Of a DNA stretch of 64,000 bases, positions 34,189-63,593 are shown piece after piece. Below the pieces are notes generated by a model that was given only the letters and a program-made list of their open reading frames with translations, had not been told where the DNA came from and made no database searches. The stretch is from assembly GCA_008933835.1 (NCBI GenBank), contig WBUG01000001.1, positions 62,001 to 126,000 on the forward strand. The letters run 5' to 3'. The position numbers and the translations under genes were made by a program. The first letter of the stretch is position 1, and each line of letters opens with the position of its first letter. The stretch is from Bacteroidota bacterium (lineage in GTDB: Bacteria; Bacteroidota; Ignavibacteria; UBA10030; UBA8401).

Positions 34189-34221
34189 TTTGCATAGAAA
34201 TGCCAATAAATCGTAACTTTG
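34189..34221 (+). promoter_or_regulatory. Candidate Bacteroidota-type promoter TTTG-N21-TAACTTTG
   Basis: TTTG 34189-34192, TAACTTTG 34214-34221; spacer slightly longer than the classic about 19 nt. Confidence 0.4.
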
Positions 34222-34276
34222 AACAAGCAAAAGGGAAAACCGCTCATTCGGTTTAGATGGAAGAAAGGAAGACGTC

Positions 34277-35188
34277 ATGGGAGAAGTTCTCTTCAACACA
34301 AATGAAGTCGCCAACATGCTGCAGGTCGACAAGTCGACCGTGAAGCGTTGGACCGATGAAGGGAAGTTGAAGTGCTTCCGGACTCCGGGAGGTCACCGGA
34401 AGTTCCGTGCGGACGACGTGTACAGTTTCATGTCGAGCTTCAACTACGGCGTGTCCACGCTGCAGGTACTTCCGCAGCTCGCGAGCGATGAGGTCATCAT
34501 CAAGCGCATCGTGCAGAACAAAGAGTTCAGCGTGCTGAGTTCGGTCTGCTTCAACGCCGCCATCAAAGGGAAGAAGGACGAGATCCTCACACTCTTCATC
34601 GAAACGTACCGCGCCGGCATGTCCGTCGCCGCCGCGTTCGATCACATCCTGCGTCCCTCGCTGAAGAAGATCAACGACATGCACGCGTCCAACAAGATCT
34701 CGTTCACGGAGTACCAGCTGGCGCACAACGCGCTCTCGTCCGCCGTGGTGCAGCTGCAGGACAGCGTGCAGCGTTCCGCGAAGAACAACCGCGTCATCGT
34801 CTGTGCGTCGCTCGAGCAGGAGCGGAACGATGTGGAGAGCAAGGCGCTCGTGACGCTGTTCGAGATCGACGGGTTCACGGTGCTCAACCTCGGTACCGGC
34901 GTCAGCGCCGATGCGGTGAATCATCTGGTGTTCCGCACGAAGCCCTTCGCCGTCTGTCTGTATTCCTGCGCACCGGCGGACACGGAGAAGTTCGTGGCGG
35001 AAGTGGAGAAGGTGCTGCATGCGACGAAGGATACGATGACGCGGCTGGTGGTGGGCGGTAAGGCGTTCGAAGCGGAGGCGGTCCGCGAGAACTTCGTCGG
35101 GATCCGCATCTGCCCGTCGTTCCAGGAGTTCGCGCTCGTCCGATACCACGAGAGCGCCGAAGAAGTGAGACAGTACGACAATCAGTGA
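34277..35188 (+). CDS. MerR/excisionase-type HTH regulator with degenerate B12-binding-like C-terminal domain (regulator 1)
   Basis: FNTNEVANMLQVDKSTVKRWTDEGKLKCFRTPGGHRKF; C-terminal RVIVCASLEQERNDVESKALVTLFEIDGFTVLNLGTGVSADAV resembles CarH-type B12 domain but lacks the ligand His. Confidence 0.82.
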   Translation: MGEVLFNTNEVANMLQVDKSTVKRWTDEGKLKCFRTPGGHRKFRADDVYSFMSSFNYGVSTLQVLPQLASDEVIIKRIVQNKEFSVLSSVCFNAAIKGKKDEILTLFIETYRAGMSVAAAFDHILRPSLKKINDMHASNKISFTEYQLAHNALSSAVVQLQDSVQRSAKNNRVIVCASLEQERNDVESKALVTLFEIDGFTVLNLGTGVSADAVNHLVFRTKPFAVCLYSCAPADTEKFVAEVEKVLHATKDTMTRLVVGGKAFEAEAVRENFVGIRICPSFQEFALVRYHESAEEVRQYDNQ

Positions 35189-35239
35189 AACTATCAAGCA
35201 ACGATGACAACGAACACACAACACAAAGGAGACAGCAGC

Positions 35240-35260
35240 ATGGAACCGAAACCGCCGTAA
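35240..35260 (+). CDS. Candidate leader mini-ORF MEPKPP*
   Basis: AAAGGAGA SD 8 nt upstream of ATG; 6 codons ending CCG CCG TAA; in the leader of the next surface gene. Confidence 0.45.
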   Translation: MEPKPP

Positions 35261-35334
35261 CGTCGCTCGCACCGGACGTCCAAGTTTGTAACACACAACG
35301 AACCATTCACCTCACACACAAAGGAGCAACAACA

Positions 35335-37137
35335 ATGAAGAACACGACGATGTTCTCGCGATTGGGAGCGATGATGATCATCGCCCTCCTGATCTCCTCC
35401 GTGCAGTACGGCGTCGCCGCGGGTACCACCGCCGGTACCGCCATCACGAACTCCGCCACCGTGTCCTACATGGACGGCGTGAACCTGAAGAACAAGACCT
35501 CCAACACCGTGACGATGTACGTGGGGCACAAGGTGGCGGGCGCGTTCTCCCCGGCCTCCGGCTCGACGAACACCTACGACAACGTCACGTACTACCATGC
35601 CATCAACTTCCAGAACAGCTCCAACCGGCTGACGAAGTACACCATGTCGTTCAACTCGGTGGCGGGCTACACGTTGTCCCTCATCCAAGATGACAACCAG
35701 GACGGTATCCACCAGTCCGGCGAGACGACGGTCGTGACGACCGACTCGCTCGTCATCGATGGGTCGAAGTACTACTTCATCAAGGCGGTCGTCGGCACCA
35801 TCGCGAACGGCACGGCGAACGGCATCACCGTCACCTTCACCAACGCTTCCGGAGACAGCACGAACACCGTGGTGGTCAACCCGGCCGCATCGTTCAGCTA
35901 CACGCTCACCTCCACCATCGTGAAGCCGGTCATCAGCTACCAGGTGAGCGGAACGGCTCCGTCGCCCCTCATCCCGGGCGCGCCGTTCGACTTCACCGTC
36001 ACGCTGGACAACACCGGTACGGCGACCCCGTACAGCTATGATCTCGGTGCCTCGGATTCCTCGGTGGTTCAGATCCAGTATACAGTCCCCTCGAACTTCG
36101 AGTTCACGGGCGGTGCGTCGGGCGCCTTCACACTGAGCCCCTCCGGTTATGTGTCGTACACGTACTCGGGTGGAGTCATCACGATGCTGGTCGACACGTC
36201 GTACCTCGAACCGGCTGATGCCTCCATCAGCTTCACGCTGCCGATCCGGATCGACCAGTCCCTGAACAGCGGCACTGGTCCGGCCTCGGGTTCCTCTATT
36301 AATAGTCAGGCCGGCGACTTCTCGGTGCTGACCTACAGCAGTCCGCAGACCCAGCTCACCACCACCGCTTCCACGTCGGGAACCATCTTCACCGGCGCGA
36401 CCACCGTGGCGGCGTCGAAGGGCGGCATGTGGTCCGTGACCCCGGCGAACGACAGCACGGCGGCGAACGAGACCACCGAGTACATCCTGACCCTGAAGAA
36501 CATGGGGAACACCAGCGCGACCTTCACCATCACCGACACCGACAACGGCGGTAACGTGGTCGTGAACCACCTGGTGGCCGAGAGCTCGTACGGAACGGAC
36601 CTGACCGGAAGCACGGCTTCTGTTGCGGCCGGTTCCACCATCCAGATCTACGTCCGTCTGACGGTCCCCGGCACCGCGGTGGCGCAGGACTCCATCAAGC
36701 GCAAGCTCGCCGTCGCCTCCGACGCGGCCGGCACGCTGTACACCGGCGCGGTCGTCTCCGACTATGAGCACACCATCGTGACCTACGTCGTCGCGGCCTC
36801 GTTCAACATCACCCTGGCGGCGGAAAGCGTCGCAGGCATCGGCACCACCACGAATCCGGCTCCGGAAGACACGGTGACCTTCGCCCTCACGCTGCAAAAC
36901 ACCGGCACCACCAACATCACCAGCGTGCAGATCTCGAACCTCATCCCGGCCAACATGACGTTCCTGGCGAACGCGTATGCCGCCGGTCAGGGCATCCGGA
37001 TCGACGCGGTGAACCAATCGAACGCGAACGACGGCGACGACGCCTACTTCGACGGTTCGGCGGTGAAGACGAACAGCACCTTCAGCATCAACGCGGGCGT
37101 GACCAAGGTCCTCCGCTACAAGTGCACGGTGAACTGA
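35335..37137 (+). CDS. Secreted DUF11-type surface protein
   Basis: AAAGGAG SD; signal peptide; GTTAGTAITNSATVSYMDG N-terminal motif; DUF11-like repeats; 600 aa. Confidence 0.8.
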   Translation: MKNTTMFSRLGAMMIIALLISSVQYGVAAGTTAGTAITNSATVSYMDGVNLKNKTSNTVTMYVGHKVAGAFSPASGSTNTYDNVTYYHAINFQNSSNRLTKYTMSFNSVAGYTLSLIQDDNQDGIHQSGETTVVTTDSLVIDGSKYYFIKAVVGTIANGTANGITVTFTNASGDSTNTVVVNPAASFSYTLTSTIVKPVISYQVSGTAPSPLIPGAPFDFTVTLDNTGTATPYSYDLGASDSSVVQIQYTVPSNFEFTGGASGAFTLSPSGYVSYTYSGGVITMLVDTSYLEPADASISFTLPIRIDQSLNSGTGPASGSSINSQAGDFSVLTYSSPQTQLTTTASTSGTIFTGATTVAASKGGMWSVTPANDSTAANETTEYILTLKNMGNTSATFTITDTDNGGNVVVNHLVAESSYGTDLTGSTASVAAGSTIQIYVRLTVPGTAVAQDSIKRKLAVASDAAGTLYTGAVVSDYEHTIVTYVVAASFNITLAAESVAGIGTTTNPAPEDTVTFALTLQNTGTTNITSVQISNLIPANMTFLANAYAAGQGIRIDAVNQSNANDGDDAYFDGSAVKTNSTFSINAGVTKVLRYKCTVN

Positions 37138-37150
37138 CCGTCACTCAGGA

Positions 37151-37175
37151 CTGGCCGGGAGTGATACCCGGTCAG
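37151..37175 (+). other. Intercistronic hairpin CTGGCCGGG-agtgata-CCCGGTCAG
   Basis: 9-bp stem (one G-T), no T-tract; between two surface genes. Confidence 0.6.
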
Positions 37176-37198
37176 CCCTCTATTATAGACACGACACT

Positions 37199-40100
37199 TT
37201 GAACACCATCAACAAATACGGTCTGGCGCTCCTCGGATGGATGCTGCTGCTCGCGACGACGGTCGACGCGCAGGCGATCATCAATGAGCCGAAGGAGGGG
37301 GCGAAATCCCACTTCACCAGCCAGTTCGTCGCCGGCACCGGACCGACCAACGTCCCCGTGAAGCTGCTCGTCAACGGCACGGCGGTCGATTCCGGTTCGG
37401 TCCGTTCCGACGGTGTGTTCGAGTTCATCGGCGTCACGGTCCCGCGCGGTCCGGTCACCTTCACCGTGGTCATGAAGATGCCCGGCGGCCGGCTCGTGAG
37501 CACGGTCCGCCGCATCCACATTTATGACGTGCCGGATTCCATCGCGTTCGAACTGCCGGAGAAGGACCTTCGTGCCGACGGCCGGTCGCAGCTCACCGCG
37601 AACGTGCAGCTGCTGGACAAGTGGGGCGTACGCATCGAGGACGGATACTTCCTCACCGTGGAAGCGGACAGCCTCTCGCTCGGCATGAAGGACCTCGATC
37701 CCGCCACGCCGGGCGTTCAGGCCCGTCTTGCAGGCGGTACCGTGGCGGTTCCGGTCGTTGCACCGAAGAACGCCGGTTCCTATTCCGTGAAAGTGACGGC
37801 CTCCGGCGTCGAACGGCGCTTCCACACCCAGTTCAACACCCCCATCGAGCCCCTGATGCTCGTCGGTTCGGCCGATGTGAGCGGGCGCTACCTTTCGACC
37901 TCCGGCGACCTGTCACAGCTGAAGAGCCGATCGCTGCTCGAGGACGGTTTCCACAGCGACGGCCGCCTGGCCCTCTACGGCCGCGGTACGGTCTGGGGCG
38001 ATTACCTCCTCACCGCCTCGTTCGACAACACCCGCCGCCGCGACCGGCTGTTCCAGGAGGTCGATCCCGACGTTCTCTACGGCATCTACGGCGACAACAG
38101 CTCGGTGGACTACACCGCGCAGACGAACAATCCGTTCTTCGTGAAGCTCGAACGGAACCGTTCCTATGCGCTGTTCGGCGACTTCAACACCTCGATGAAC
38201 CTCAACGAACTGGCGCGGTACGACCGCACCTTCAACGGCGCGAAGGCGCATTACGAAGGGGCCACGGAGAACGCCGATGTCTTCGTCACGTTGACGGACC
38301 GCAAGGTGTCGGTGGACGAGATCCGCGGACAGGGCATCTCCGGATACTACTTCCTCGGCCGCAGCGACGTGGTGACGGGAACGGAGAAGGTCCGCATCGA
38401 AGTGCGCGACAAGCGGCACAGCCAGATCATCCTCTCCCGCGCGGAGAAGTCCCGCTTCAGCGACTATGAGATCGATTATGAACAGGGGACCCTCTTCTTC
38501 AAGCAGCCGGTTCCGAGCGTCGACAGCGACGGCAACCCGGTCTTCATCATCGTCACCTACGAGGCGGTCTCTTCCAATGTGGCGGACTACTCGTACGTGC
38601 TCGGCGCCCAGGGCGAGAAGGAGATCGTCTCGGGTCTGCGCATCGGCGGTACGGCGGTTCTGGACAAGTCCAACAACGACTTCACGCTCCTCGGCGGGCA
38701 TGCCAAATACGCTCCGTCGACGCGATTCGGCCTCGGCGCTGAGTTCGCCCGCGGTTACGACGACCTGAACGCCGGCGGCAACGCCTGGAAGGTGGACCTG
38801 TCCGGCGAACCGGTGGAGCGTCTGCTGCTGACCTCCTACGTCCGGAAGGTCGAATCGGGCTTCATGAACCAGACGATGGGCGCGGGCGGACTGTCGGGCG
38901 AGTCGGGTTCCACCAAGTACGGCGTCGGCGGTTCGTACGACGGCATCGCCGATACGAAGCTCGCCGCCGAGTTCTACCATCAGCTGCAGCCGGTCAACGG
39001 CACGACCGCCGAGATCACGTCGGTGAAGGGGACCGCTGACCGTTCCTTCGGCAGCGTCGCCACCATCGGTGCCCGCGTGGAGAACGTGTCGTACGAGAGC
39101 GCATTGGACACGGCGGCGAAGCGTTCCACCCTCGTGGCGCTCCGCGGCACGCTGCGCCCGGCCGACCGCCTGAACATCATCACCGAGTACGAACACAGTT
39201 TCAGCTCCTCCGCGGGCGAGCAGGTGAAGCCCTCCTCCGCGACCATCGGCGCCGAGTACCGGGTCTTCAATCCCGTGCTGCTCTCCTACAACCAGAAGTT
39301 CTACGGCAACGGCGGCAGCTCTTCCGTCTTCGGCGTCAACACCGAGCTGGGCTATGGGACGACGGCGATGGGCCGGTATCAGATCGGCAACGCCATCAGC
39401 GGTCAGAGGAACCAGTACAGCATCGGTCTGAAGAACACCCTGAAGCTGACCGACGAGCTCACTTCGAACGTGCTGGTGGAGCGGACCCGGGCGCTCGACC
39501 GGAACATCGTCGAGGCGCAGACGCCGGACAACGACGCGGTGTCGCTCGGACTCGAGTACCTTCCGAAGGCCGCCTATAAGGCTTCGGTGAAGGGTGAGAT
39601 CGGAAAGAACCGCCAGGCGCTGCGCCGTTCGTTCACCTTCGGCGGGGACCTGCGCATCGCGAACGACTTTACATTAATCGACAAATTCACGTATTATGAT
39701 GAGGCCCGCGAAGTGCCGCAGAGCACCGCGGCGACCTTCGCCGACGGCACGCTGTCGCCGGAACAGATCGGAACGGGTCTTGCGAACGGGACGATGAAGA
39801 AGTTGCACAACGCTCTCGGCCTGGCGTACCGTCCGGTGGACGTCGACTGGCTGAACGCCATCGGCAAGTACGAGAAGAAGGTGGAGTACAACGGCATGGT
39901 GCAGCCGCAGTCGTCCTACAATACGGACATCGTGTCGCTGCATACGTTCATCGAGCCGGTCATCGGTCTTGAGATCGGCACGAAGTACGCCCTGAAGATG
40001 TCGTCGGAAGAGGCGTACGGACTGACCGCCGCCACGGTGGCCGATTTTTACCTGGTCCGCGCCGAGTACGACCTGCGCTGGAACAATTTCGATGTCGCGG

Positions 40101-40339
40101 CCGAATTCCGCGTCCTCTCCAGCCGCATCGAGGGGCAGGCAGGTTCCGGCAGTGCGCGGAGCGGGTACAGCGCCGAGCTCGGGTACGTGGCGTTCCAGAA
40201 CGTCCATGTCGGGGTCGGCTACAACTTCGTCGGCACCGAGGACCGCGACCTGGTCGGCCGCGAGTACTGGTCCGCCGGCCCGTACGTCACCTTCCGGATG
40301 AAGTTCACCGAAAAGGTGCTGGAGTATTTCAACAAGTGA
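37199..40339 (+). CDS. Large outer-membrane beta-barrel protein associated with DUF11 proteins
   Basis: TTG start, signal peptide MNTINKYGLALLGWMLLLATTVDAQA; alternating barrel-like strands; LYGIYGDNSSVDYTAQTNNPFFVKLERNRSYALFGDFNT...; C-terminal F-x-M-K-F-T-E-K-V-L-E-Y-F. Confidence 0.72.
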   Translation: MNTINKYGLALLGWMLLLATTVDAQAIINEPKEGAKSHFTSQFVAGTGPTNVPVKLLVNGTAVDSGSVRSDGVFEFIGVTVPRGPVTFTVVMKMPGGRLVSTVRRIHIYDVPDSIAFELPEKDLRADGRSQLTANVQLLDKWGVRIEDGYFLTVEADSLSLGMKDLDPATPGVQARLAGGTVAVPVVAPKNAGSYSVKVTASGVERRFHTQFNTPIEPLMLVGSADVSGRYLSTSGDLSQLKSRSLLEDGFHSDGRLALYGRGTVWGDYLLTASFDNTRRRDRLFQEVDPDVLYGIYGDNSSVDYTAQTNNPFFVKLERNRSYALFGDFNTSMNLNELARYDRTFNGAKAHYEGATENADVFVTLTDRKVSVDEIRGQGISGYYFLGRSDVVTGTEKVRIEVRDKRHSQIILSRAEKSRFSDYEIDYEQGTLFFKQPVPSVDSDGNPVFIIVTYEAVSSNVADYSYVLGAQGEKEIVSGLRIGGTAVLDKSNNDFTLLGGHAKYAPSTRFGLGAEFARGYDDLNAGGNAWKVDLSGEPVERLLLTSYVRKVESGFMNQTMGAGGLSGESGSTKYGVGGSYDGIADTKLAAEFYHQLQPVNGTTAEITSVKGTADRSFGSVATIGARVENVSYESALDTAAKRSTLVALRGTLRPADRLNIITEYEHSFSSSAGEQVKPSSATIGAEYRVFNPVLLSYNQKFYGNGGSSSVFGVNTELGYGTTAMGRYQIGNAISGQRNQYSIGLKNTLKLTDELTSNVLVERTRALDRNIVEAQTPDNDAVSLGLEYLPKAAYKASVKGEIGKNRQALRRSFTFGGDLRIANDFTLIDKFTYYDEAREVPQSTAATFADGTLSPEQIGTGLANGTMKKLHNALGLAYRPVDVDWLNAIGKYEKKVEYNGMVQPQSSYNTDIVSLHTFIEPVIGLEIGTKYALKMSSEEAYGLTAATVADFYLVRAEYDLRWNNFDVAAEFRVLSSRIEGQAGSGSARSGYSAELGYVAFQNVHVGVGYNFVGTEDRDLVGREYWSAGPYVTFRMKFTEKVLEYFNK

Positions 40340-40361
40340 TGAACAGCGACCGAACGAACCC

Positions 40362-43300
40362 ATGAAGAGCACACGCCATCATATCGTACGGAGAACGGCC
40401 ATCGCCGCAATGACGGTCCTGACCGTCGTTCTGCCGTCGCTGCTTCGGGCCCAGACGCTCGCCAATTACTCCGTGAGCCGCACCACCGGCATCTCGTACA
40501 TCGGCATCAATTCCACCGGGAACTCGTTCCCGTCCTGGCGGAACAGCACGGACGGGAACTACAACGAGGACGATAACCGGAGCTATCCGGTCGACATCGG
40601 TTTCGATTTCTGGTACAACGGCGTGCGGTACACGCAGTTCTCCGTCTCCACGAACGGGTTCATGGACCTTTCCCCCTCAACGGACGACGGCGGTCCGCTG
40701 GTGCATGCGTACGGACCGTACGACGACGACATGAGCGAGGACAACACGTCGGAGAACACCACGCTCGCCATCGCCCCGTTCTATTACGATCTGACGACGT
40801 ACGGTGTGGTCGATCCGCTCGGCGAAAGCATCCATTACGAAGTCTCCGGAACGGTCGGGAACCGTGTGCTGACCGTGGAGTGGTACCGCATGGAGCCGTG
40901 GGTGAACGGGGGCGGGGGAGACCCGGACTTCACGTTCCAGGTGAAGCTGTACGAATCGACCGGACAGATCGAGTTCGTGTACGGAGCGATGAACCTGAAC
41001 GGGTTCGTCTTCGCCAATCAGGTGTACCAGGTGGCGAAAGGATACACGGCCGGCATGAACTCGGGGACCATCAGCGCTTCTCCGACGGCGGCGCAGCTCT
41101 TCCTGCAGCAGACACCGAACAGCACCACGTTCAGCAATGCGAACGCGTTCGGAAACGAAGCCGACGCCGCGCACAACCTCGGGACGGCACCGGCGTCGAA
41201 CTCCAAGATCACCATCGCTCCGCCGGCCATGACGGCTCCGACCACGCTGACCTTCACCGCGGTCTCGCAGACCGGCATGACCCTGAACTGGACCGATGCC
41301 TCCGCGAACGAGGTCGGTTTCGTCATCTACCGCTCCGATGACGGCGGTGCAACGTACAACTTCATCACCCAGACCGCTGCCAACGCCACGTCGTATGCGG
41401 TCACAGGACTCCTGGCCGGCACCACGTACTATTACCGTGTGTACGCGGTCAATGAAGGACGTCTGAGTTCCGCGCTCTCCGGGAACCAGGCCACGGCGGC
41501 CCCCGGGTCGCCGGTCACGATCGCCTCGGGCTCCTGGAAGAACAAGAACATCTGGTCCACCAACACCGTCCCGGGCATTTCGGACAACGCCACCATCGCC
41601 GACGGGCATGTGGTCACCATCGACTCCCTGGTGACGGTGAACAGCATCACGGTCGGCCAGGGGACGAGCGGAACCCTGCTCATCGGCGATAATGCCACTC
41701 CGCGCACCATCACCGTCATCGGCAACATCGACGTGAAGGCGGGAGGCATCTTCCGCGTGAACGCCAACTCGAACACGTCGTCCCACTCCATCACGACGTC
41801 GGGGAACATCCTGAACGCCGGCCGGTTCGTCATGGCGACGGACGCCGACAGCCGCTGCGCCGTGACGTTCAACAAGAGCGGCACGCAGACCATCAGCGGC
41901 AACGGCGACTCGACGATGTTCCACACCATCACCCTGAACATGGGGAGTTCCCGCACGAACGTGCTGGACGTCTTCGCCACGAACTTCAGAGCGTACGCGA
42001 CCGGATTCCTGACCATCACCAATGGAACGTTCAATCTCGCCACCGGCGCCACCGTCACGCCGTTCACGACCTCCGTCAGCGTCCCCCTCTCCGGCGGTAT
42101 CCGAGTGAACCACGCCTCGGCGGTCCTGAACACGACGGGCGGGAGCACCACGGTGCTCGGCGAGTTCAAGGTGCAGGCCGGCACGGTCAACATCGGCAGC
42201 GCCGCCGATAACAACCTCATCTCGCGCGGCGGTATCTTCGAGTTCTCCGGCGGCACCACGACCGTGGCGGGACGGTTCGAACCGTTCTCGGCGTTCGACA
42301 TCACCGATTTCACCATGTCCGGCGGTACGCTCATCGTGGGGGGGACCGGCAGCACGTCCACCACCTCGTCGCCGTTCACGATGTCGGTCGCCGGTTCCCG
42401 CTTCACCATGAGCGGCGGTACCATCGTCGTCCGGCGGGAAGGGGGCGGCGGCGGGAACGACCTCGGCTTCGTCAACACCGGATACAGCAACTACAGCGTC
42501 ACGGGCGGTACCGTGCAGATCGGCGACGGCTCGACACCGTCCGGACAGACGATGTCCGTGAACACCGCCATCCCGGTCTACAATTTCGTCGTCAACAGCG
42601 GAAACGCCACCGCATTGCTGGTCACGAACAATCTCACGGTCCTCAACGATGTCTCGATCACGCTGGGTACCTTGAACGCCAACGGCCGTGACATCGCGGT
42701 CGCGGGGAACTGGTCGAACAGCAACCAAACGTTCACGCCGGGTACAGGCACGGTGACGTTCAATGGGACCGGCGCGCAGAACGTCTCCCGCGCATTGGGC
42801 GAAACGTTCTACCGGTGGTCCATCGTGAAGACGTCGGGCACCGTGAGCCTGGTGAATCCTGTCACCGTTTCCGATGCGTTTCAGTTGACATCCGGCACTC
42901 TTGCGGTCGGCACATCCTCCCTCACGCTCAACGGTACTGTCACGGGAGGCGGTACGCTCACATCCTCCGCGTCCGGAACCGTTTCCTATAACCGCAGTGC
43001 GAACTCTCAGACGGTGCTCGAGGCGAACTACGGTGATCTCAACTTTTCAAACTTCCTGAAGGACCTGCCGGCGGCGGTCATCGGGATCGCGGGCGCCTTT
43101 AATCCCGGAAATGCGAGCGGTCATACGGTCACCGGGAACACCATCGAATACAACGGCACGGGACCGCAGAGCATCGCATCGTTCCAGTACAACGATCTTA
43201 CCCTGACGAACAACAGCACGAAGACGGTGCAGTCCGGAGCGGACACGGTGCTCGGCTCGCTCACCATCAACACCAATGCGGCGCTCGTCAACAACGGCGT

Positions 43301-49247: not shown

Positions 49248-49258
49248 TCGGAGCGGTC

Positions 49259-50314: not shown

Positions 50315-50351
50315 ACAGAACATTTCACAACAGGACTCTTCAGGGGATCGT

Positions 50352-52031: not shown

Positions 52032-52047
52032 TCGGGACAGAGACTCC

Positions 52048-53730: not shown

Positions 53731-56700
53731 GGACCGGCACGATGATATGCCGTACCGGTCTCTTCCGGACATTGGTCTTCGTCACGGTACTCGGTGCGGT
53801 ATTCCCTGCGGCAATGACCGGGCAGACCGCCCCCGGGACCGAAGTGCGGAACCAGGCGCGCGGCCTGTACCAATACCGTTCCTTCCCGCAGGATACGGCG
53901 CGTTCCAATCCGGTTCAGTTCACCGTGCTGGCGGCTCCGAACTTCAGCATCTCGTTCGGCGCACGCGACACCATGGTCTTCGGGAAGGAGACGCTCCAGG
54001 TCCGTCTCGTCTATACGAACATCGGCAATCAGACGGCGGACAGCGCCGTTGTGACCGGTGTTCTTCCTCCCGCGGGATTGTCGTTCGTCCCCGGCTCGAC
54101 GGGCGGTTCCGTCTCCGGGAACACGGTCACGTGGCGCGTGAAGAACATCGCGGCGGGACAGAGCGATTCGGTGGGGGTGAAGGTGGTGGTGGACAGCACC
54201 CTCCTCGCCAACACCCAGCTGCAGGTGGAGGGAAACATCGAGTGGCTCTCCACGTCGACGAACGCGCTCACAACGTTCGTCGTGTCGAGCTTCCCGCGGC
54301 TCGATCTGAGCATCGTTCCGAACGCATCCTTTGTCGGCTCCGGCCGCACCATCGTGCACCAGCTCGTCGTCCGGAATTCCGGCAACCTCGCGGCCGCCGG
54401 TGTCACGGTGATGGACACCCTGTCAGCGGACGCTTCCTACGTCAGCGCCTCACCGGTGCCGGACAGCATCCGGGCGGGAGGAAAGGTGCTCGTGTGGAAA
54501 CTCGGCACGCTCGGTGCATTCCAGCAGACGGTCATCACGCTCACCGAATCCACCCCCCCGAACCTGGCATCCGGTACGGTGCGTAATTCGGCGACGGCGT
54601 TCGCCTCGAACATCGCCGCGTCGGCTGCCGCGACCTCCGTCGTGCCCATCCTTCCGGTCGCGCCGAAGAGCATCCAGATCTCGGCGGTTCCGCCCTACAT
54701 CTTCGGACAGCTCGGGCTCGACAGTGCGCTCGTCACAGTCCGATTGAAGGATTCGCTGGCCCAGTCCCTGCCGGACGGCGTGCCGGTGCAGTTCACCACC
54801 GCACGCGGTTCGTTCAGCAACGGCGCGAAGTCCCGGACCGTCACGCTGCAGAACGGCTCCGCGTCGCTCTACCTGCGTCCGGAGAACGTCACAAACGACA
54901 TCATACGCACGGCGGTGACCGCCGTGGGCGGCGCGGCCGCGTCGGGCACCGTCACCGACTCCGCCGAGGTGCTCATCTATCCCGGTGCGGTGGGCGGTAC
55001 GGTGGTCAACGGTCTGGACCGTGTTCCGTTCGCCGGCGCCATCGCGCGGGTCTACAATCAGACGTCGGCCGTCGTCGGGGCCGACACCACCGGAACGGAC
55101 GGGAAGTTCTTCGTTCCGTTGAACAAGGACGTCTCCGCGTACCGTCTGGAGATCTTTGTCGTCGACAAGTTCGGCGATACGGTCATCACGAACGCGGCCA
55201 TCGATCCGACGCAGTTCCCCAAACCGCCCATCCAGATCCCGAACACCATCTCCGGCCGCATCCAGTACCGAGTGTCGGGGCTTCCGGTCCCCGCGGAAGG
55301 TATCACCGTGTTCCTCGATTCCGTTTCTACGGCGGGCGGCAGGACGGCGCGGCGGGCCGGTCAGCGGAATCTCCCTGCCGGTGTCTACGCCCGAGTGCAG
55401 GAACAGCAGACCGACGCGCTCGGCCGATTCAAATTCGAGAACCTGAGACCGGCGCGGTACATCGTCTCGGTGGACAGCACGCAGTTCCCCAGCTATAAGG
55501 GATACAGTTTCGTCTCCGACACGGTGTCGGGCACGTTCACCATCAATCTCAGCATCGAGATCGAGCAGGATTCGACCGTGACCTTCTCGGTCACCGGTCC
55601 GTCCGCCGCCTCCGCGGGCGACACGGTGCGCTACACCGTCGGCTATACGGCCTCCGGGAATCTCAACCATTACAACGTCACGGTCACCGACACGCTGCCT
55701 CCCTTTACGTCGTTCGTCAGCGCTGAGCAGGGGGCGTTCAAGAGCGTGGCGTACGATTCGTCGTCGCGGGTGGTCCGCTGGGCTGCCGATTCCATCGTCG
55801 CATTGCAGAGCGATTCGGTGCGTCTTGCCCTCAAGATCGCCGGGAACATACCGGACAGCACGCGGCTTCGCGCCACGGCGTGGTTCAATTCGACCGTCCG
55901 GCCGTCGTTCGGCGCGACCGCGGTGACCACCGTCCGGTCGCTCGGCACGCTCGCGTTCGGGAACGTCTTCCAGCGCGATTCCATCATCGCCGGGGACAGT
56001 CTGTCGAAACGGCTCTGGTTCGTCAACACCGGCACCGACAGCCTCAAGAACCTTGTCATCGTCGATTCGCTCTTCTCGGGCGGCGGGAGCCGCATCGCGC
56101 TCTCCAAGTCGATGGCGGACAGCGTCGCGGTCGCGGACAGCATCATCACCGTCTCGGTCGGCGCGCTGGCGCCGGGGGAGGGGGACACCCTCACGTTCAC
56201 GCTTTATACGGATTTCACTCTCCCGCCAGGGACCAGGATCCGGTCGAACGCTCATGTGATGCAGGGAGCGACCATTCTGACGAGCCTTTCCGCCTCCGTC
56301 ACGATGGTGGAGAACAGCGCCATCGCGGGATACCTGAAAGTGACGAAGACCGCGAACAAGAAGTCGGCGGAGATCGGCGATGTCGTGACCTACCAGGTGC
56401 AGGTGAGCAACACGAGTCCCCTCCTCTTCCATACGCTGGCGGTCTATGACCTGATGCCGCATGCGTTCACCTATGTGAAGGGGTCGGCACGGTTCAACGG
56501 CCGTCCGTCGGAGCCGGTCATGAACCCGTCGCTGAACGGGATGACCTGGAACCTTCCCGATTCGCTCGATGCGGGGAAGAGCGGCATGCTGGTCTATCAG
56601 TTGGCGGTCGGCGCTGACGCGATGGAGAGCCAGGGGATGAACACCGCCTATGCCGGGGCGACCGCCGGTGCCGGTTTCCGTCTCCTCTCGGCAGCAGCGC

Positions 56701-58466
56701 AATGGCAGGTGACGGTCCGTCCCGGCGTCTTCACGGAGAAAGGTCTCATCATCGGCAAGGTCTTCTACGACGACAACCGGAACACCTTCCAGGAACCGGG
56801 CGAGGACGGCATCAAAGGGGTGGAACTGTGGATGGAGGACGGCACGAAGATCACCACCGGCAACGACGGCAAGTACTCGCTGCCGGAGGTCCGGCCGGGA
56901 CAGCATGTGATCCGGTTGAACGAACGCACGCTACCGCGCCGGTCGTCGCTGCTGCCGGGTTCCACGAAGTTCGCTGGTGATCCCGGTTCGCAGTTCGTCC
57001 GTCTCACCGAGAGCGGCATCGCGAAGGCGAACTTCTTCATCGCCCGGAACATCGCGGACACCGTCCGGCAGTCCGCCGGCAAGATGAACCGGCTCCTCAC
57101 GGTGGCGCAGGCCGTGCCGAAGTACGTCTACCGCGACACCGTGCAGGACGTACGGAACGACACGGTGGACATCATCGTCTCGTTCGTCTTCTCCGGCGCG
57201 CGGTACCTGCAGACCATCGAAGCCAATCAGGTGCTTCCGTCAGCGTTCCAGATCGTCCCTGGTTCTGCGACATACAACGGCCGTAAAGTGACGCCGGTGG
57301 TCTATAACAATAATGTGCAATGGAAGCTCGGCCGGGCGCAGCTCGTCTCCGGCGGAACCCTGCGGTACAAGGCGTACATCGCTTCCATGCCGAAGCCCAA
57401 CACCACGCTCCTCACCTCCACGGTCGTGAAGGTGATGACGGTCGACAGCGTCTTCGTGGAAAGCAGACCGATGGTGACCGAGAACATCGTCCGCGACGTC
57501 GAGACGAACGCCATCGAGTCATCCGAAGTGCTCACGGCGGTCACGCCTCCGTCGCCGCTCACGCAGATGGGGGACACGGTCACCGTCAGCGAGGGGGATG
57601 AGGTCATGTTCCGTATCGCGCTCTATATCGATCCCAAGAAGGAGATCCGTTCCGTCCGGATCATCGATTCGCTCGAGACGGAGTTCTTCATCAACGAGCG
57701 CTCCTTCACCCTGAACGGCATGCCCCTCCCGTCCCGCCATCTCTCGGTCCGGGTTCGGTCGTCCGGACTCTCGGCCCGGATGCTGGTCAAGAAGGAGGAG
57801 ATCGACTTCCAGCGCATCGCAAAGGTGGACATCACCGAGCTGGTGCGGAAGGGGATGAACGAGATCACGTTCACGGCGCGGCTCAATGCCGCGGTGAAGG
57901 ATACGGTCTTCCGGAAGACCGTCTATGCGTCCGTGGTGAACGTGCACAATGAAGAGACCGTCACCCGCTCCAACGACCTTGCCATCGTCGTGAACGCCAG
58001 CAAGAGGGTCCCCGCCGTGGCGGTGGAGACCAACGTCATCGACCGGCCGAAGAAGCGGACCAGGATTGAAGAGAAGGTGGCGGAAGCGGTGAAACTGGTC
58101 GAAGCGCTGAATCAGACATCTACCCGGTCGGTCGTGATGGAAGGTATCACCTTCGAGGCTGGGAAATCGCTCCTCACGGCTGATGCCAAGGTCGTTCTCG
58201 ATAACATCGCTTCGTCCCTCCAGGCGAACCCCGATATCCGCATTCAGGTCAACGGCCACACGGACAATACCGGGAACGCTGCCGCGAACCGCAGGATCTC
58301 CCTCGACCGTGCCAAGGCGGTGAGGGCATACCTCATCTCGAAGGGGGTCCAATCCGACCGGTTGTTCGCACAGGGTTTCGGTCCGGACAGACCTATCGCT
58401 ACGAATAAGACCGAAGAGGGGAGAGCCAAGAACAGACGGGTGGAGTTCAGCAGAATCCGCAAATAA
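53727..58466 (+). CDS. DUF11/SdrD-B-like repeat protein with C-terminal OmpA peptidoglycan-binding domain (1579 aa)
   Basis: ATGA overlap; DUF11 repeats; GKVFYDDNRNTFQEPGEDGIKGVELWMEDG; C-terminal IRIQVNGHTDNTGNAAANRRISLDRAKAVRAYLISKGV...GPDRPIATNKTEEGRAKNRRVEFS. Confidence 0.9.
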   Translation: MRTGTMICRTGLFRTLVFVTVLGAVFPAAMTGQTAPGTEVRNQARGLYQYRSFPQDTARSNPVQFTVLAAPNFSISFGARDTMVFGKETLQVRLVYTNIGNQTADSAVVTGVLPPAGLSFVPGSTGGSVSGNTVTWRVKNIAAGQSDSVGVKVVVDSTLLANTQLQVEGNIEWLSTSTNALTTFVVSSFPRLDLSIVPNASFVGSGRTIVHQLVVRNSGNLAAAGVTVMDTLSADASYVSASPVPDSIRAGGKVLVWKLGTLGAFQQTVITLTESTPPNLASGTVRNSATAFASNIAASAAATSVVPILPVAPKSIQISAVPPYIFGQLGLDSALVTVRLKDSLAQSLPDGVPVQFTTARGSFSNGAKSRTVTLQNGSASLYLRPENVTNDIIRTAVTAVGGAAASGTVTDSAEVLIYPGAVGGTVVNGLDRVPFAGAIARVYNQTSAVVGADTTGTDGKFFVPLNKDVSAYRLEIFVVDKFGDTVITNAAIDPTQFPKPPIQIPNTISGRIQYRVSGLPVPAEGITVFLDSVSTAGGRTARRAGQRNLPAGVYARVQEQQTDALGRFKFENLRPARYIVSVDSTQFPSYKGYSFVSDTVSGTFTINLSIEIEQDSTVTFSVTGPSAASAGDTVRYTVGYTASGNLNHYNVTVTDTLPPFTSFVSAEQGAFKSVAYDSSSRVVRWAADSIVALQSDSVRLALKIAGNIPDSTRLRATAWFNSTVRPSFGATAVTTVRSLGTLAFGNVFQRDSIIAGDSLSKRLWFVNTGTDSLKNLVIVDSLFSGGGSRIALSKSMADSVAVADSIITVSVGALAPGEGDTLTFTLYTDFTLPPGTRIRSNAHVMQGATILTSLSASVTMVENSAIAGYLKVTKTANKKSAEIGDVVTYQVQVSNTSPLLFHTLAVYDLMPHAFTYVKGSARFNGRPSEPVMNPSLNGMTWNLPDSLDAGKSGMLVYQLAVGADAMESQGMNTAYAGATAGAGFRLLSAAAQWQVTVRPGVFTEKGLIIGKVFYDDNRNTFQEPGEDGIKGVELWMEDGTKITTGNDGKYSLPEVRPGQHVIRLNERTLPRRSSLLPGSTKFAGDPGSQFVRLTESGIAKANFFIARNIADTVRQSAGKMNRLLTVAQAVPKYVYRDTVQDVRNDTVDIIVSFVFSGARYLQTIEANQVLPSAFQIVPGSATYNGRKVTPVVYNNNVQWKLGRAQLVSGGTLRYKAYIASMPKPNTTLLTSTVVKVMTVDSVFVESRPMVTENIVRDVETNAIESSEVLTAVTPPSPLTQMGDTVTVSEGDEVMFRIALYIDPKKEIRSVRIIDSLETEFFINERSFTLNGMPLPSRHLSVRVRSSGLSARMLVKKEEIDFQRIAKVDITELVRKGMNEITFTARLNAAVKDTVFRKTVYASVVNVHNEETVTRSNDLAIVVNASKRVPAVAVETNVIDRPKKRTRIEEKVAEAVKLVEALNQTSTRSVVMEGITFEAGKSLLTADAKVVLDNIASSLQANPDIRIQVNGHTDNTGNAAANRRISLDRAKAVRAYLISKGVQSDRLFAQGFGPDRPIATNKTEEGRAKNRRVEFSRIRK

Positions 58467-58493
58467 GACCTACGCATTTTTACCGTCCGTAGA

Positions 58494-58524
58494 GGGGTGA
58501 CAGTTTTGTCACCCCTTTTTTTTT
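58494..58524 (+). terminator. Intrinsic terminator closing surface module 1
   Basis: GGGGTGACagttttGTCACCCC then T9. Confidence 0.9.
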
Positions 58525-58647
58525 GCCAAATTCCCTCATTAGACCTCTCTAATGTGTTGAAAATCACTTCATTTGAGGGTGATTATGTATTACCTTGGAA
58601 CAGTCCAAATCGACCAAACCGTCCATTCCAACCTTATAGAGGTTACA

Positions 58648-59550
58648 ATGGTAGAACTCCTGTACACGACCGCCGAACTCTCCGCGATGATGCATGTGGG
58701 GATCTCTTCGATCAAACGATGGACCGATGAAGGGAAGCTCCGCTGCATCCGGACCCCTGGAGGGCACCGCAAATTCCGTGCGGCGGATGTCCACGATTTC
58801 ATTGCACAATTCCATTATTCGGTGCCGGTTCCGAAGGATGTAGCGGAAGCGGTGCTCGATGTCCGTTTCCGGCGCGATGCGGAACTGACCGCGAACGACA
58901 TCGTCCGCTCGAGCGTCGAGCATGCCGTCAGGAACGAGCACCGGTTCATCGAAAAGCAGCTTGTGGCCCGGTATGCGGCCGGTGATTCGGTCGCGTCGAT
59001 CTTCGATTCGTACCTGCTGCCGGTGCTCAAGGAGATCGAGAAAGGGAGAAGCGAGAAGAGCGTCAGCACGGTGGAGTACCAGCTCGCCAAGAACACGCTG
59101 CTGCACGCGCTCATCTTCTTCGCCGATACGCTGCCGCGGACGGCGGCGGGAATGGGTGAGCTGTACTGCCTGACGGCGAACGAACGGCTCAACGAGATCG
59201 AACTGAAGGCGGTCGAGATATTGCTCGAGCATACCGGATACCGCGTCTACAACCTCGGCACGGTGCTGACGCAGAACGATGTGAACGACCTCGTGGCGCA
59301 GTGCAAGCCGGAGGATGTCTTCGTCGTGGTGTCGCTCCGGTTCGATTCGTTCGAGGCAGGGCAGCAGTTCCACGATCTCGTTCGCGGCGTGCTCGGGTAC
59401 GGCGGAAGCGTCTGTGTATCGGACATGACCGGCGGCTCGGCCGATCCCGAGACCGAACAGGACGATCAATTCACCCGCATCCGCACGTTCGGTCACGCTC
59501 AACGGCACTTCCAATCCCTTCCGGTTCTCCACACCAATCATCAGCGCTGA
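58648..59550 (+). CDS. MerR/excisionase-type HTH regulator with degenerate B12-binding-like domain (regulator 2, paralog of 34277..35188)
   Basis: YTTAELSAMMHVGISSIKRWTDEGKLRCIRTPGGHRKFRAADVHDF; YQLAKNTL; possible upstream in-frame start at 58585. Confidence 0.82.
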   Translation: MVELLYTTAELSAMMHVGISSIKRWTDEGKLRCIRTPGGHRKFRAADVHDFIAQFHYSVPVPKDVAEAVLDVRFRRDAELTANDIVRSSVEHAVRNEHRFIEKQLVARYAAGDSVASIFDSYLLPVLKEIEKGRSEKSVSTVEYQLAKNTLLHALIFFADTLPRTAAGMGELYCLTANERLNEIELKAVEILLEHTGYRVYNLGTVLTQNDVNDLVAQCKPEDVFVVVSLRFDSFEAGQQFHDLVRGVLGYGGSVCVSDMTGGSADPETEQDDQFTRIRTFGHAQRHFQSLPVLHTNHQR

Positions 59551-59560
59551 GGAATCCATC

Positions 59561-60568
59561 ATGAACACCGTGAAGTCCGTTCTTCGCATGTTGTCCTCCG
59601 CCATGCTCCTCACTGTTCCGCTCTTCGGACAGGGGGTCGGCATCAGTGAATCACCCATCATCCCCCATACGTCCGCCATCCTGGAATTGCAGTCGACGGA
59701 CAGGGGTTTTCTCTGGCCGCGGAATAGCGCCGTTCTTGCTACGCCGGTCCAGGGTCTTTCGTTCTACAATACGGCATCGAACCGGTTTAACCTATACACC
59801 GGTTCGACGTGGCTCGAAGTGCCTGCTGCCACGGCAGGCAACTCTCTGATGTTCACGACGACCGGTGCAACGACATTGACGCTGCCGACGTCCGGTACGC
59901 TCGTGAACAGCGATGTCACGACTCTCTCGTCATTGTCGAGCATCGGTACGATAACCACCGGCACATGGAACGCCGCCACCATCGCAGTGAACCGGGGAGG
60001 GACGGGGGCGACGACGCTGACATCGAACGGTGTATTGTACGGCAATGGGACCGGAACGGTCCAAGCGACAACGGCTTCGACAGCGGCCGGTCAGGTGATG
60101 CAGACGTCGACCGCCGGGGGGGCACCGGCGTGGGCGAAGGGGGTGACCATCGTGACGCTTGGTGCGGATGTCGTCAACAATAATGCCACGGCGAACACGT
60201 TGCAGGATGTCACCGGCTTCAGTTTTAATGTGACCGCTGGAACGACGTACAATTTCCGTGCACAAATCCTTTATTCTTCAGCCGTCACAACGACGGGCTC
60301 CAGGTGGACGATCAATGGACCGGCAACGACTTTTCTTGCATACAGGTCTGTCTACACGCTCACGGCGACGACGGTCACGACGAACAATCTCAGCGCGTAC
60401 AATGTTCCGGTGGCATCGAATGCAAGCACGAATCCGACATCCGGAGTTGCGGTCATTGAAGGGGTCATTAGGCCATCAGCCAGCGGTACGGTCATCGTTC
60501 GGTTCGCATCTGAGATAGCGAGTTCCGCCATCACGGCGAGAGCCGGAAGCACCCTGATGTGGTGGTAA
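59561..60568 (+). CDS. Secreted tail-fibre-like protein
   Basis: Signal peptide; SAILELQSTDRGFLWPRN; NRGGTGATTLTSNGVLYGNGTGTVQATTASTAAGQVMQTS; C-terminus resembling phage structural C-terminal domains (TTGSRWTINGPATTFLAYRS...RFASEIASSAITARAGSTLMWW). Confidence 0.75.
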   Translation: MNTVKSVLRMLSSAMLLTVPLFGQGVGISESPIIPHTSAILELQSTDRGFLWPRNSAVLATPVQGLSFYNTASNRFNLYTGSTWLEVPAATAGNSLMFTTTGATTLTLPTSGTLVNSDVTTLSSLSSIGTITTGTWNAATIAVNRGGTGATTLTSNGVLYGNGTGTVQATTASTAAGQVMQTSTAGGAPAWAKGVTIVTLGADVVNNNATANTLQDVTGFSFNVTAGTTYNFRAQILYSSAVTTTGSRWTINGPATTFLAYRSVYTLTATTVTTNNLSAYNVPVASNASTNPTSGVAVIEGVIRPSASGTVIVRFASEIASSAITARAGSTLMWW

Positions 60569-60589
60569 AGAGGATACAGTGAAATCATA

Positions 60590-61798
60590 GTGCGTCAGGC
60601 ACCTTCCATATCGCCCAAGAGGAACACGGCAGGTCACACCATCGTCCGGTGGTTATGGTGCGCTCTGTCGCTTTCGCCGTTGATGATCGTATCCCTTACG
60701 GCGCAGGTGATCTCGACGAACGGTACCGTCTCCATCACGAACACCGCCGGAACGGTGATCTCTCTTGGAGCAAGCAGCGCGGTGGAAACGAACGCCGGTG
60801 GCACTCTGACCAATGACGGTACGCTCTCAACGGCGGCGCTCACGAATGCCGGTGCGCTCGAAGGGAACGGCACGTACACGATCACCGGTGCCTTCACGAA
60901 CTCCGGTACGTTCACTGCAGGGACTTCGACGGTGGACTACGCGAACGCTGCCGGCGGCCAGACCGTCATCCCGCTGAACTACCATAATCTTACCATCAGC
61001 AACACGAGTAACACTACCACGCTCACCGGCTCCATCGGCGTCAAAGGAACGTTCTCGCCGAGCGCCGGAGCGCTCACCTCGGCCGGCACATCCACAGTGG
61101 ATTTCAACAATGCGACCGGCGGACAAACCGTTCCTGCGTTCCTATACTACGACCTTACGGTGAGCAACGGCAGCGGCGTGACGACCTTGTCCGGAAACAT
61201 CGGTGTCGGCAACATCTTCACGCCGAGCGTGGGCGGTCTCACATCGGCCGGCACGTCGAACGTGGACCTCAACGGCTCGGCCGCGCAGTCCATTCCGTCG
61301 TTCACCTATCACGACCTGACTCTGACCTCCTCATCGGCGGTCACCAAGACCATGACCGGCGCCGTCACGGTCAACAACGACCTTACCGTCACCGCCAACA
61401 ATACGCTGGACGACGGCGGATATCAGCTCGCCGGCAACGGTTCCGGCACGTTCTCGATGGCCGCCGGCACGTCGCTCATCCTCGGCACCGCGGGAACGGC
61501 TACGCTCTTCCCGACGAACTTCATCACCGCCAACATCGCGCTGGACGCCGCCTCCGTTGTTGTCTACAATTCGGACCAGCCGCAGAGCATCTCCGCCGCG
61601 CCGGTGTACGGCTATCTCACGCTCACCGCCGGTTCGGCCGTGACGAAGACCGTCTCGGGGGCGGTGACCGTGGCGACGGACCTCACCGTCGGGACCAACA
61701 ACACTTTGAACGTCACCGGTTCGGTGCAGATCAATACCGGCGACCTCATCCTGAATGGAACATTGGACAATAGTGGCACGATCGATATAGGATTATGA
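60590..61798 (+). CDS. Secreted beta-helix-like repeat protein
   Basis: GTG start; signal anchor-like N-terminus; repeats TFSPSAGALTSAGTSTVDFNNATGGQTVPAFLYYDLTVSN; ends LDNSGTIDIGL. Confidence 0.7.
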   Translation: MRQAPSISPKRNTAGHTIVRWLWCALSLSPLMIVSLTAQVISTNGTVSITNTAGTVISLGASSAVETNAGGTLTNDGTLSTAALTNAGALEGNGTYTITGAFTNSGTFTAGTSTVDYANAAGGQTVIPLNYHNLTISNTSNTTTLTGSIGVKGTFSPSAGALTSAGTSTVDFNNATGGQTVPAFLYYDLTVSNGSGVTTLSGNIGVGNIFTPSVGGLTSAGTSNVDLNGSAAQSIPSFTYHDLTLTSSSAVTKTMTGAVTVNNDLTVTANNTLDDGGYQLAGNGSGTFSMAAGTSLILGTAGTATLFPTNFITANIALDAASVVVYNSDQPQSISAAPVYGYLTLTAGSAVTKTVSGAVTVATDLTVGTNNTLNVTGSVQINTGDLILNGTLDNSGTIDIGL

Positions 61799-61836
61799 AC
61801 GGACGAACACGATATGAATCAAGAAAGGAGGCTCAG

Positions 61837-61860
61837 ATGAACGAACGGGGTCCCCCGTGA
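61837..61860 (+). CDS. Candidate leader mini-ORF MNERGPP*
   Basis: AAAGGAGG SD 5 nt upstream of ATG; 7 codons ending CCC CCG TGA; in the leader of 62016..63593. Confidence 0.45.
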   Translation: MNERGPP

Positions 61861-62015
61861 AGTGCACGGCAGTCCCGGCAGACCACTGATCTGCCGTCAT
61901 CATCAACAACATCATCACATCATTGTTTGGAGACAGCACCATGAATACCGACAAGAAGAAAGACGGCATCACCATCATCACATCATCATTCATTCATTCC
62001 CAAAGGAGCGTTACC

Positions 62016-63593
62016 ATGGCACATCTCTCATTCCTCCGCAAGAGCATCGGCGTCATCCTTGCTCTCGTTCTCATGACCGGCGCCTTGTTCGGTCAGAACA
62101 ATCTCGTCATTTCCAACGGCAGCACCGTCACGAATTCCGGAACCATCCGGGTGAAGGGGAACATCGACAATACCGGCGTCGCCGGTGCCACGACCATCGG
62201 CGGTACGGTGGAACTGAAAGGGACCACCGGCCAGGATATCGGCACGAACGGGAACGGTGCGTTGAATTTCACCACCCTCACCGCGACGGCGGTCTCCACC
62301 AAGACGTTCAATGTGGACGCCTCGGTCGCAACGGCACTGAACATCACCTCGGCCGGCGCCACGCAGTTCGCGGTGGCCGCGAGCCAGGACCTGACCATCG
62401 GCGGCACCATCCAGAACACCGGCGGTGCGGGCACTCCGTACGACTTCGATAACAGCGGCGCGGTGGTCATCTACAATGGCGGAGCACAATCCGTCTTCAC
62501 GACGACCTATGACGGACTGACGGTCACCAATGCCGGTTCGAAGAGCCTCGGCGGCAGCATCACGGTGGTGAGCGCTCTCACGGCGAACAGCAGCAGCGAC
62601 CTGAGCATCGGTGCGAACCTGCTGACCGTGAACGGCACGTATTCCGTCAGCGGCGGCGCCACGGTCACCGGCGGTGCCACCTCCGACCTGACCCTGAACG
62701 GCAGCGGCGATATCGCTTCGTTCGAAGTGACGGGCGGGCTGAGCGATTTCATCCTGAACCGTTCGAACGTCGTCACGCTCGGTGCTGACCTGACGGTGGC
62801 AGACGGATTCACGATCACCGCCGGTACGCTGGCGGTAAACACCAGCACGCTCACGCTCAACGGCGCGGTCACGAGCAGCGGCACGCTCACCAGTGCGGCG
62901 ACCGGTACGGTCAACTACAACAAGGGCACGGATGTCCAGAACGTCCTGGCGGCCAGCTACGGCAACCTGACCTTCTCCAGCTTCGCCAAGACACTGCCGG
63001 CCGGGACGGTGACGGTGGCGGGCACCTTCACGCCCGGAGCCTCGGCGACGCACACCATCACGGGCAACACCTTCGACTTCACCGGTGCGACCCAGAACGT
63101 TCCCAGCTTCAACGGCGCGACCGGGTATAACAACCTGACCCTCTCCGGTGCGGCGAGCACCAAGACCGCGACAGGCAACCTCGAGATCGCCGGCAACTTC
63201 GACAACGGCGGCGGCAGCGACAACGCTGTCACCCTCGATATGGGTCTGAACACGCTCGTCATCGACGGTACGCGGGACAACACCGCCTCCACCATCAAGT
63301 TCGCCGGAGCGTCCAACGGTCAGCTCTTCACGACCGGTACCATCGAGTACAGCGGTACCATCACGCAGACCATCGCGGGCGGCGGCGATTACAACATCCT
63401 GACCTTCACCGGTACGGGTATCAAGAGCATCGCAGCGGCGACGACGGTCGGCACCAACAACGACCTTTCGGTTCCGGCCGGCATCACCCTGCAGCTCGCG
63501 GCGGGTTCGTCCACGCTCAACCTGAACGGCACGTCGAACCTGACGGTCGCCGGTACGCTGGACAACGCCGGTGTGATCGAGATCGGTCTGTAA
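62016..63593 (+). CDS. Secreted beta-helix-like repeat protein
   Basis: AAAGGAG SD; signal peptide MAHLSFLRKSIGVILALVLMTGALFGQ; repeat unit shared with the 2961-aa protein; ends LDNAGVIEIGL; alternative upstream start at 61941. Confidence 0.75.
   Translation: MAHLSFLRKSIGVILALVLMTGALFGQNNLVISNGSTVTNSGTIRVKGNIDNTGVAGATTIGGTVELKGTTGQDIGTNGNGALNFTTLTATAVSTKTFNVDASVATALNITSAGATQFAVAASQDLTIGGTIQNTGGAGTPYDFDNSGAVVIYNGGAQSVFTTTYDGLTVTNAGSKSLGGSITVVSALTANSSSDLSIGANLLTVNGTYSVSGGATVTGGATSDLTLNGSGDIASFEVTGGLSDFILNRSNVVTLGADLTVADGFTITAGTLAVNTSTLTLNGAVTSSGTLTSAATGTVNYNKGTDVQNVLAASYGNLTFSSFAKTLPAGTVTVAGTFTPGASATHTITGNTFDFTGATQNVPSFNGATGYNNLTLSGAASTKTATGNLEIAGNFDNGGGSDNAVTLDMGLNTLVIDGTRDNTASTIKFAGASNGQLFTTGTIEYSGTITQTIAGGGDYNILTFTGTGIKSIAAATTVGTNNDLSVPAGITLQLAAGSSTLNLNGTSNLTVAGTLDNAGVIEIGL

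Follow-up and report, generated by a model that had tools for sequence, protein, structure and literature searches.

CarH-type proteins have mainly been described as B12-based light sensors that control carotenoid genes. Two motifs define CarH, the adenosyl-capping Wx9EH and the cobalt-ligating ExHxxG (PMC8156234), and CtMerR is likewise a light-responsive B12 regulator (PMC11796333). CarA, a CarH paralog in Myxococcus xanthus that lacks Wx9EH, works without B12 (PMC8156234) and controls carotenoid genes together with the CarS antirepressor. BldC of Streptomyces consists of a helix-turn-helix (HTH) domain only (68 residues) and binds AATTXXXX(C) direct repeats head-to-tail (PMC5859096). Clusters of DUF11, SdrD_B, and OmpA genes occur in Bacteroidota; we found no functional description of these surface systems in the literature searched, and nothing relevant on Kapabacteria or Ignavibacteria with DUF11 surface loci. 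Here, we analyze a 64,000-nucleotide stretch of an Ignavibacteria genome (Bacteroidota bacterium, GCA_008933835.1, contig WBUG01000001.1, positions 62,001 to 126,000; hereafter the window), located on contig 26 of a 3.57 Mb assembly in 163 contigs. Two paralogous genes on its plus strand, regA (34277..35188) and regB (58648..59550), each head a module of predicted surface genes. On balance, these modules probably represent two independently conserved surface operons, each with an autoregulated, B12-independent regulator of CarH descent. This explanation draws directly on gene content, conservation, synteny, the loss of B12 motifs, and conserved arrays of 9-bp repeats (9-mers), compared across related and partly incomplete genomes with the longest open reading frames (ORFs) as gene calls.

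RegA and RegB share 38% sequence identity and are reciprocal best matches within the genome, as expected for the paralogs that an earlier sequence-only reading of this locus had taken them for. Domains were assigned with Pfam and NCBIfam hidden Markov models (HMMs), and matches to solved structures were sought in the PDB by sequence and by fold. RegA combines a BldC/MerR-like winged HTH (Pfam HTH_17) with a degenerate B12 fold, scoring above the cut-off for B12-binding_2 (PF02607) and below it for B12-binding (PF02310). RegB has an HTH_17/MerR-like domain and passed neither of the two Pfam B12 models. Both weakly match the CarH/corrinoid models of NCBIfam. The combination of HTH and B12 fold is indicated for RegA by Pfam and PDB matches and for RegB by homology and NCBIfam. 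The closest solved structure to RegA by sequence is CtMerR (8jbs, E 1e-30), and a structural model of RegA (predicted local distance difference test, pLDDT, 77) resembles the folds of CtMerR (E 1e-13) and CarH (E 5e-11). For the HTH, matches to the BldC structures 6amk/6ama were obtained as well. The HTH_BldC model gives E-values of 1e-17 and 3e-14 for the two regulators, although the scores of 63 and 52 bits stay below the NCBIfam cut-off of 77. Unlike BldC, both proteins add a B12-fold domain to the HTH.

The domain order (HTH followed by B12 fold) and the best structure match are thus those of CarH, as described for Thermus, Bacillus megaterium, and Myxococcus, and of CtMerR (PDB 8JBS/8JBT), but the motifs that define CarH have been lost. 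Wx9EH is absent in all 17 regA/regB orthologs and ExHxxG in 16 of them, with an asparagine replacing the histidine in both window regulators, and seven of seven canonical paralogs keep both motifs. The label "B12-like" in the earlier reading therefore stands for the fold and not for B12 binding, since the binding residues are gone. Functional membership of RegA and RegB in CarH was rejected because both defining motifs are lost. RegA and RegB would descend from CarH-type B12 photoreceptors that gave up the residues holding B12, with B12 presumably replaced as the signal. Alternatively, the two proteins could still sense light or B12, through other residues or in mixed oligomers with the canonical paralog, which would place the surface operons in a CarH-type light response. 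The shared fold with CtMerR and CarH speaks for this, as do the E-H-G residues retained in one regA ortholog and the presence in the same genome of a canonical CarH-like paralog whose orthologs have a related 9-mer array. We nevertheless regard continued light or B12 sensing as unlikely, given the loss of the cobalt-ligating histidine in nearly all orthologs and of the adenosyl-capping Trp and Glu-His in every one. In an earlier study, a protein lacking the signature failed to bind adenosyl- or methylcobalamin (PMC11796333), and the B12 independence of CarA has been attributed to the loss of Wx9EH (PMC8156234).

A tree of 30 regulators separates four groups, namely the module-1 (support 81/92), module-2 (100/100), and canonical regulators (99/97) and a fourth group (100/99). 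The canonical paralog in the source genome, which has both motifs, adjoins a flavin amine-oxidase-type gene, and related regulators elsewhere in the order adjoin photolyase-like genes or phytoene-desaturase and phytoene-synthase-like genes, as judged from the start sequences alone. A neighbourhood of photolyase or carotenoid genes is the usual setting of CarH. Two other kinds of relatives without B12 motifs were observed. One, outside the regA/regB groups (L125:7982-16354, G011 C5), lies directly 5' of a gene for a 2,484-aa giant repeat protein and may represent a third case of recruitment to a surface gene. A further related group (G000:C89:6234-7091 (L048), L127, and L128) is also without the B12 motifs, and no 9-bp periodicity is seen 5' of its genes.

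Each regulator gene is preceded by a tandem 9-mer array that the sequence-only reading had not mentioned. In front of regA, a candidate promoter (TTTG-N21-TAACTTTG, 34189..34221), which we take to resemble the Bacteroidota -33/-7 consensus, is followed at the expected transcription start by the head-to-tail 9-mers CAAAAGGGA / AAACCGCTC / ATTCGGTTT (34228..34254). The TTG and TAnnTT positions of this promoter are conserved across 11 aligned upstream regions of regA orthologs. AAA(A/C)CGCT is invariant 5' of all 11 orthologs; an A-tract precedes it by about 9 bp, and the TTG...TAnnTT promoter lies next to it. Upstream of regB, four head-to-tail 9-mers (GAACAGTCC / AAATCGACC / AAACCGTCC / ATTCCAACC, 58598..58633) have counterparts in six of six orthologs, and all 24 of these 9-mers end in C. 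Both sets of upstream regions show an autocorrelation maximum at 9 bp (z 3.9 for regA and 8.6 for regB, relative to mononucleotide shuffles and with other lags as internal control). A matrix trained on 15 sites from relatives, with the window left out, ranks the regB array first in the window (32.2 bits) and the regA array second (25.0 bits), followed by a next-best score of 17.3; the best of 60 dinucleotide shuffles reached 18.1 bits and none of the 60 reached 25. A single composite pattern had three matches in the 3.57 Mb assembly, two of which are the regA and regB sites, and since it was written after these sites had been seen, it speaks to how rare they are and does not amount to an independent discovery. 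Treating every family-wide match to this pattern as a real site was rejected, with rates near those of the control in many genomes and with the examined matches falling inside coding sequence or outside any repeat context.

The window 9-mers match the BldC repeat in sequence, as AT-rich-N4-C direct repeats of 9 bp. The multi-repeat arrangement, a putative operator overlapping the promoter, recalls CarH and CtMerR, whereas the CarH repeat measures 11 bp (PMC8156234) compared to 9 bp in the regA and regB arrays, and CarH controls carotenoid genes rather than surface operons. By resemblance, RegA and RegB may work like CarA- or BldC-type switches without being CarH members. Across the order, the canonical and further related regulators likewise have arrays of 9-bp repeats 5' of their genes (z 5.1 and 6.8 at lag 9), and 9-bp self-operators therefore seem ancestral in these regulators. 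We infer that each regulator would bind its own array over the transcription start as a head-to-tail oligomer and that this binding would set the expression of the whole operon, with repression the more likely direction. Other upstream sequences were noted in passing. A TTAG-N6-CTAA dyad lies 5' of regB (58539..58552, the only match in the window versus 0.03 expected), TTAG-N6/7-CTAA dyads were seen by eye 5' of several regA/regB orthologs, and this dyad is a possible site for another factor. In G085 (L060, minus strand, near 15735), a second array (AAACCGAAC/AAACCGTTC/AAAGGGCTC) precedes regA about 155 bp 5' of the first. A GTNACCYATS motif 5' of the regulators was discarded as it does not exceed chance in the window.

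Conservation of module 1 is seen well beyond the source genome. A search of 98 genomes of the order for relatives of g37, the putative barrel gene of this module, identified them in 24, with orthologs of the same family at 52-64% identity; the closest named relatives come from metagenome assemblies of uncultured Ignavibacteriae or Bacteroidetes. A regA-clade gene, a g35-like gene, the barrel gene, and the giant repeat gene are collinear with the window in G095, G079, G082, G081, G085, G084, and G090, with an additional g35-like gene in G085 and the giant gene interrupted in several genomes by a contig end or by the gene calling. The regA-clade genes of G083 and G094 precede DUF11 genes resembling g35 and g49; the G086 contig stops just past regA. 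The co-occurrence of regulator and surface genes that had been proposed from the window holds in this neighbourhood comparison: a DUF11 gene lies directly 3' of the regA-clade regulator in all ten assessable cases (window included), and regB-clade genes precede fibre or repeat genes. Module 1 is, by this sequence comparison, a conserved operon. Its surroundings vary, as it lies shortly 3' of an apparent tRNA-Leu gene or its end in L058, L057, and L061 (G081, G082, G084) and adjoins a major facilitator superfamily (MFS) transporter gene in the window, G095, G079, and G086. The locus may have moved between these tRNA-Leu and MFS transporter neighbourhoods.

The architecture read from the window, two same-strand surface gene modules with an HTH/B12-fold regulator at the head of each, is confirmed in that all ORFs are present and closely spaced. 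The spacing derived from the ORF coordinates is in line with the tight packing described before. In module 1, regA (end 35188) and g35 (start 35335) are separated by 146 bp, and the following gaps measure 61 bp (37137 to 37199), 22 bp (40339 to 40362), 11 bp (49247 to 49259), 37 bp (50314 to 50352), and 16 bp (52031 to 52048), before g52 (end 53730) overlaps g53 (start 53727) by 4 bp. Gaps in module 2 include 10 bp (59550 to 59561) and 21 bp (60568 to 60590). The terminator proposed after module 1 was recovered as an intrinsic terminator-like hairpin whose stem has 12 pairs and precedes a run of T (58491..58518). It is the longest stem in the region, in which the count of terminator-like sites is not above chance.

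The products of module 1 share features consistent with a common surface assembly, and the DUF11 and OmpA assignments made from the sequence hold up in the HMM searches. DUF11 is found in g35, g40, g49, g50, g52, and g53. The first gene, g35 (35335..37137), encodes a predicted secreted DUF11 protein (TIGR01451/DUF11, GTxAGTxIxNxA N-terminal motif) with orthologs in the same position. It is followed by g37 (37199..40339), a putative outer-membrane barrel with two N-terminal immunoglobulin (Ig)/invasin-like domains and a beta-rich region of about 830 aa, and by g40 (40362..49247), a 2,961-aa repeat protein with fn3 domains whose orthologs lie directly 3' of the barrel gene. Then come g49 (49259..50314), encoding a small predicted secreted protein, g50 (50352..52031), a DUF11 subunit with the N-terminus GTPAGTVI, and its paralog g52 (52048..53730), which scores above the cut-off for TIGR04226 (isopeptide-forming fimbrial domain). 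The last gene, g53 (53727..58466), encodes a DUF11/SdrD_B protein with a C-terminal OmpA domain of the peptidoglycan-binding type (PF00691, E 7e-25). A homologous DUF11 domain lies flush with the C-terminus in g35, g40, g49, g50, and g52, and it may serve as an assembly or export tag. A GTxAGTxI-type N-terminal motif is common to g35, g50, g52, and g53.

In distant Bacteroidota, a single protein of about 2,400 aa, encoded amid other DUF11 genes, combines a g53-like DUF11/SdrD_B part, the g37 region, and OmpA. This fusion supports g37 and g53 as candidate parts of one outer-membrane platform; operons with such fused proteins were observed in the Bacteroidota loci L160, L161, and L162. Compared to these DUF11/SdrD_B/OmpA clusters, the source genome and its family have the same components, but these are encoded separately, accompanied by a giant repeat protein, and headed by a regulator gene of their own. 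RegA would control an outer-membrane platform in which the putative barrel g37 is combined with g53, the OmpA-anchored DUF11/SdrD_B protein, and the subunits ending in DUF11 would form a cell-surface layer or appendage with the giant repeat protein. The extracellular structure envisaged from the window finds support in module 1 alone, through the shared C-terminal DUF11 domain, the N-terminal motif, and the fusion of OmpA, DUF11, and barrel in distant Bacteroidota.

Module 2 starts with regB, which forms its own clade; its orthologs, at 44-49% identity, come from five genomes that belong to a single genus within the family. Downstream, g59 (59561..60568) encodes a predicted secreted fibre-like protein without a Pfam or NCBIfam match, whose N-terminus is conserved after regB in G093 and G096. 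Orthologs of g60 (60590..61798), a predicted secreted repeat protein resembling part of g40, likewise follow regB in G093 and G096, and an ortholog of g62 (62016..63593), another predicted secreted repeat protein similar to g40 and g60, follows g60 in G093. The module had been read as ending at 63593, but it continues past the window end with a 1,348-aa protein (G000:C26:126068-130114 = L049:6068-10114, window-equivalent 64068-68114) that combines six Big_1 domains and one dockerin with a C-terminal sorting domain (tail) of the type IX secretion system (T9SS) recognized by HMM. G093 is collinear throughout, with regB, g59-like, g60, and g62 genes and a 1,333-aa Big_1/dockerin/T9SS-tail protein. 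In G095 and G097, regB was found with a large ORF that has a hydrophobic, signal-like start. The T9SS sorting domain has 147 matches in the source genome, and no T9SS tail was detected by HMM in g35, g37, g40, g49, g50, g52, g53, g59, g60, or g62. RegB would control this smaller set of fibres or adhesins, the last of which would be exported via the T9SS. Cohesin matches were seen elsewhere in the same genome (C147, C139), making attachment through dockerin-cohesin pairs possible.

The adjacency of the two modules, seen only in the source genome, raises the possibility that they form one integrated surface system cross-regulated by both regulators, an idea encouraged by their similar HTH recognition regions and related operators and by the resemblance of the g60/g62 repeats to parts of g40. 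However, module 1 and regB are on separate contigs in G095 (C44 and C54, respectively), showing that the modules travel separately, and the module-1 barrel is absent from G093 and G097, both of which carry regB. The export tails differ as well, with a T9SS domain in module 2 and none in module 1. We thus consider an integrated, cross-regulated system highly improbable, and the earlier suggestion that both modules build one structure was abandoned. Judging from these genomes, module 2 is conserved separately, and its position next to module 1 is lineage-specific.

Several observations weigh against the proposed pair of self-regulated operons. The loss of B12 motifs is not absolute, as RegA of G079 retains ExHxxG. 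Of the two arrays, that of regA is the less regular one, with a final C in only one of four window 9-mers. The barrel fold of g37 is unproven: a weak Invasin_D3 hit is its sole Pfam match, a PDB sequence search gave no match, and an AlphaFold model from five sequences has low confidence (pLDDT 43.5; predicted template modelling score 0.29), with confident N-terminal Ig domains and an unreliable remainder, and was set aside as evidence. G078 has module-1 genes without a regA-type regulator in front. Several families have a second barrel type (~40% identity) at the end of their DUF11 clusters, and a search for a regulator ahead of these loci yielded none in the two contigs with long upstream stretches; the regulator is therefore not essential to the surface system. 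Across 22 genomes of the family, nine have both the orthologous barrel and a regA-clade gene, four the barrel only, two the regulator only, and seven neither, an association (Fisher p 0.04) that is weak given the relatedness and partial incompleteness of these genomes, so that adjacency is the stronger evidence. Such regulator-free loci, together with the 146 bp between regA and g35 that leave space for a second promoter, would also fit regulators that act elsewhere, with their upstream position incidental and the surface operons transcribed independently or constitutively. Yet each regulator clade keeps its own module across genera, and the window has no such arrays except at the two regulator promoters. 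The other pattern matches examined lie in coding sequence or lack a repeat context, and an incidental position appears improbable to us.

The regA/regB lineage retains the CarH-type fold together with the principle of a repeat operator, has lost the B12 site, and is tied to surface operons, suggesting the re-use of a light switch for control of the cell surface. In its broadest form, which is possible but doubtful, a photoreceptor lineage without its cofactor would have been recruited to the two surface operons as a self-controlled, oligomerising switch for surface assembly, and module 1 would be a dedicated outer-membrane export and assembly pathway, separate from the T9SS that serves many other secreted proteins of this cell, whose barrel/OmpA platform recognizes the shared C-terminal DUF11 domain. 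The locus provides defined DNA sites and proteins for studying the conversion of a photoreceptor into a switch that works independently of light. It also offers a handle on the DUF11 surface systems of Bacteroidota, in the form of a regulator, an operator, a putative barrel/OmpA platform, and a shared C-terminal domain.

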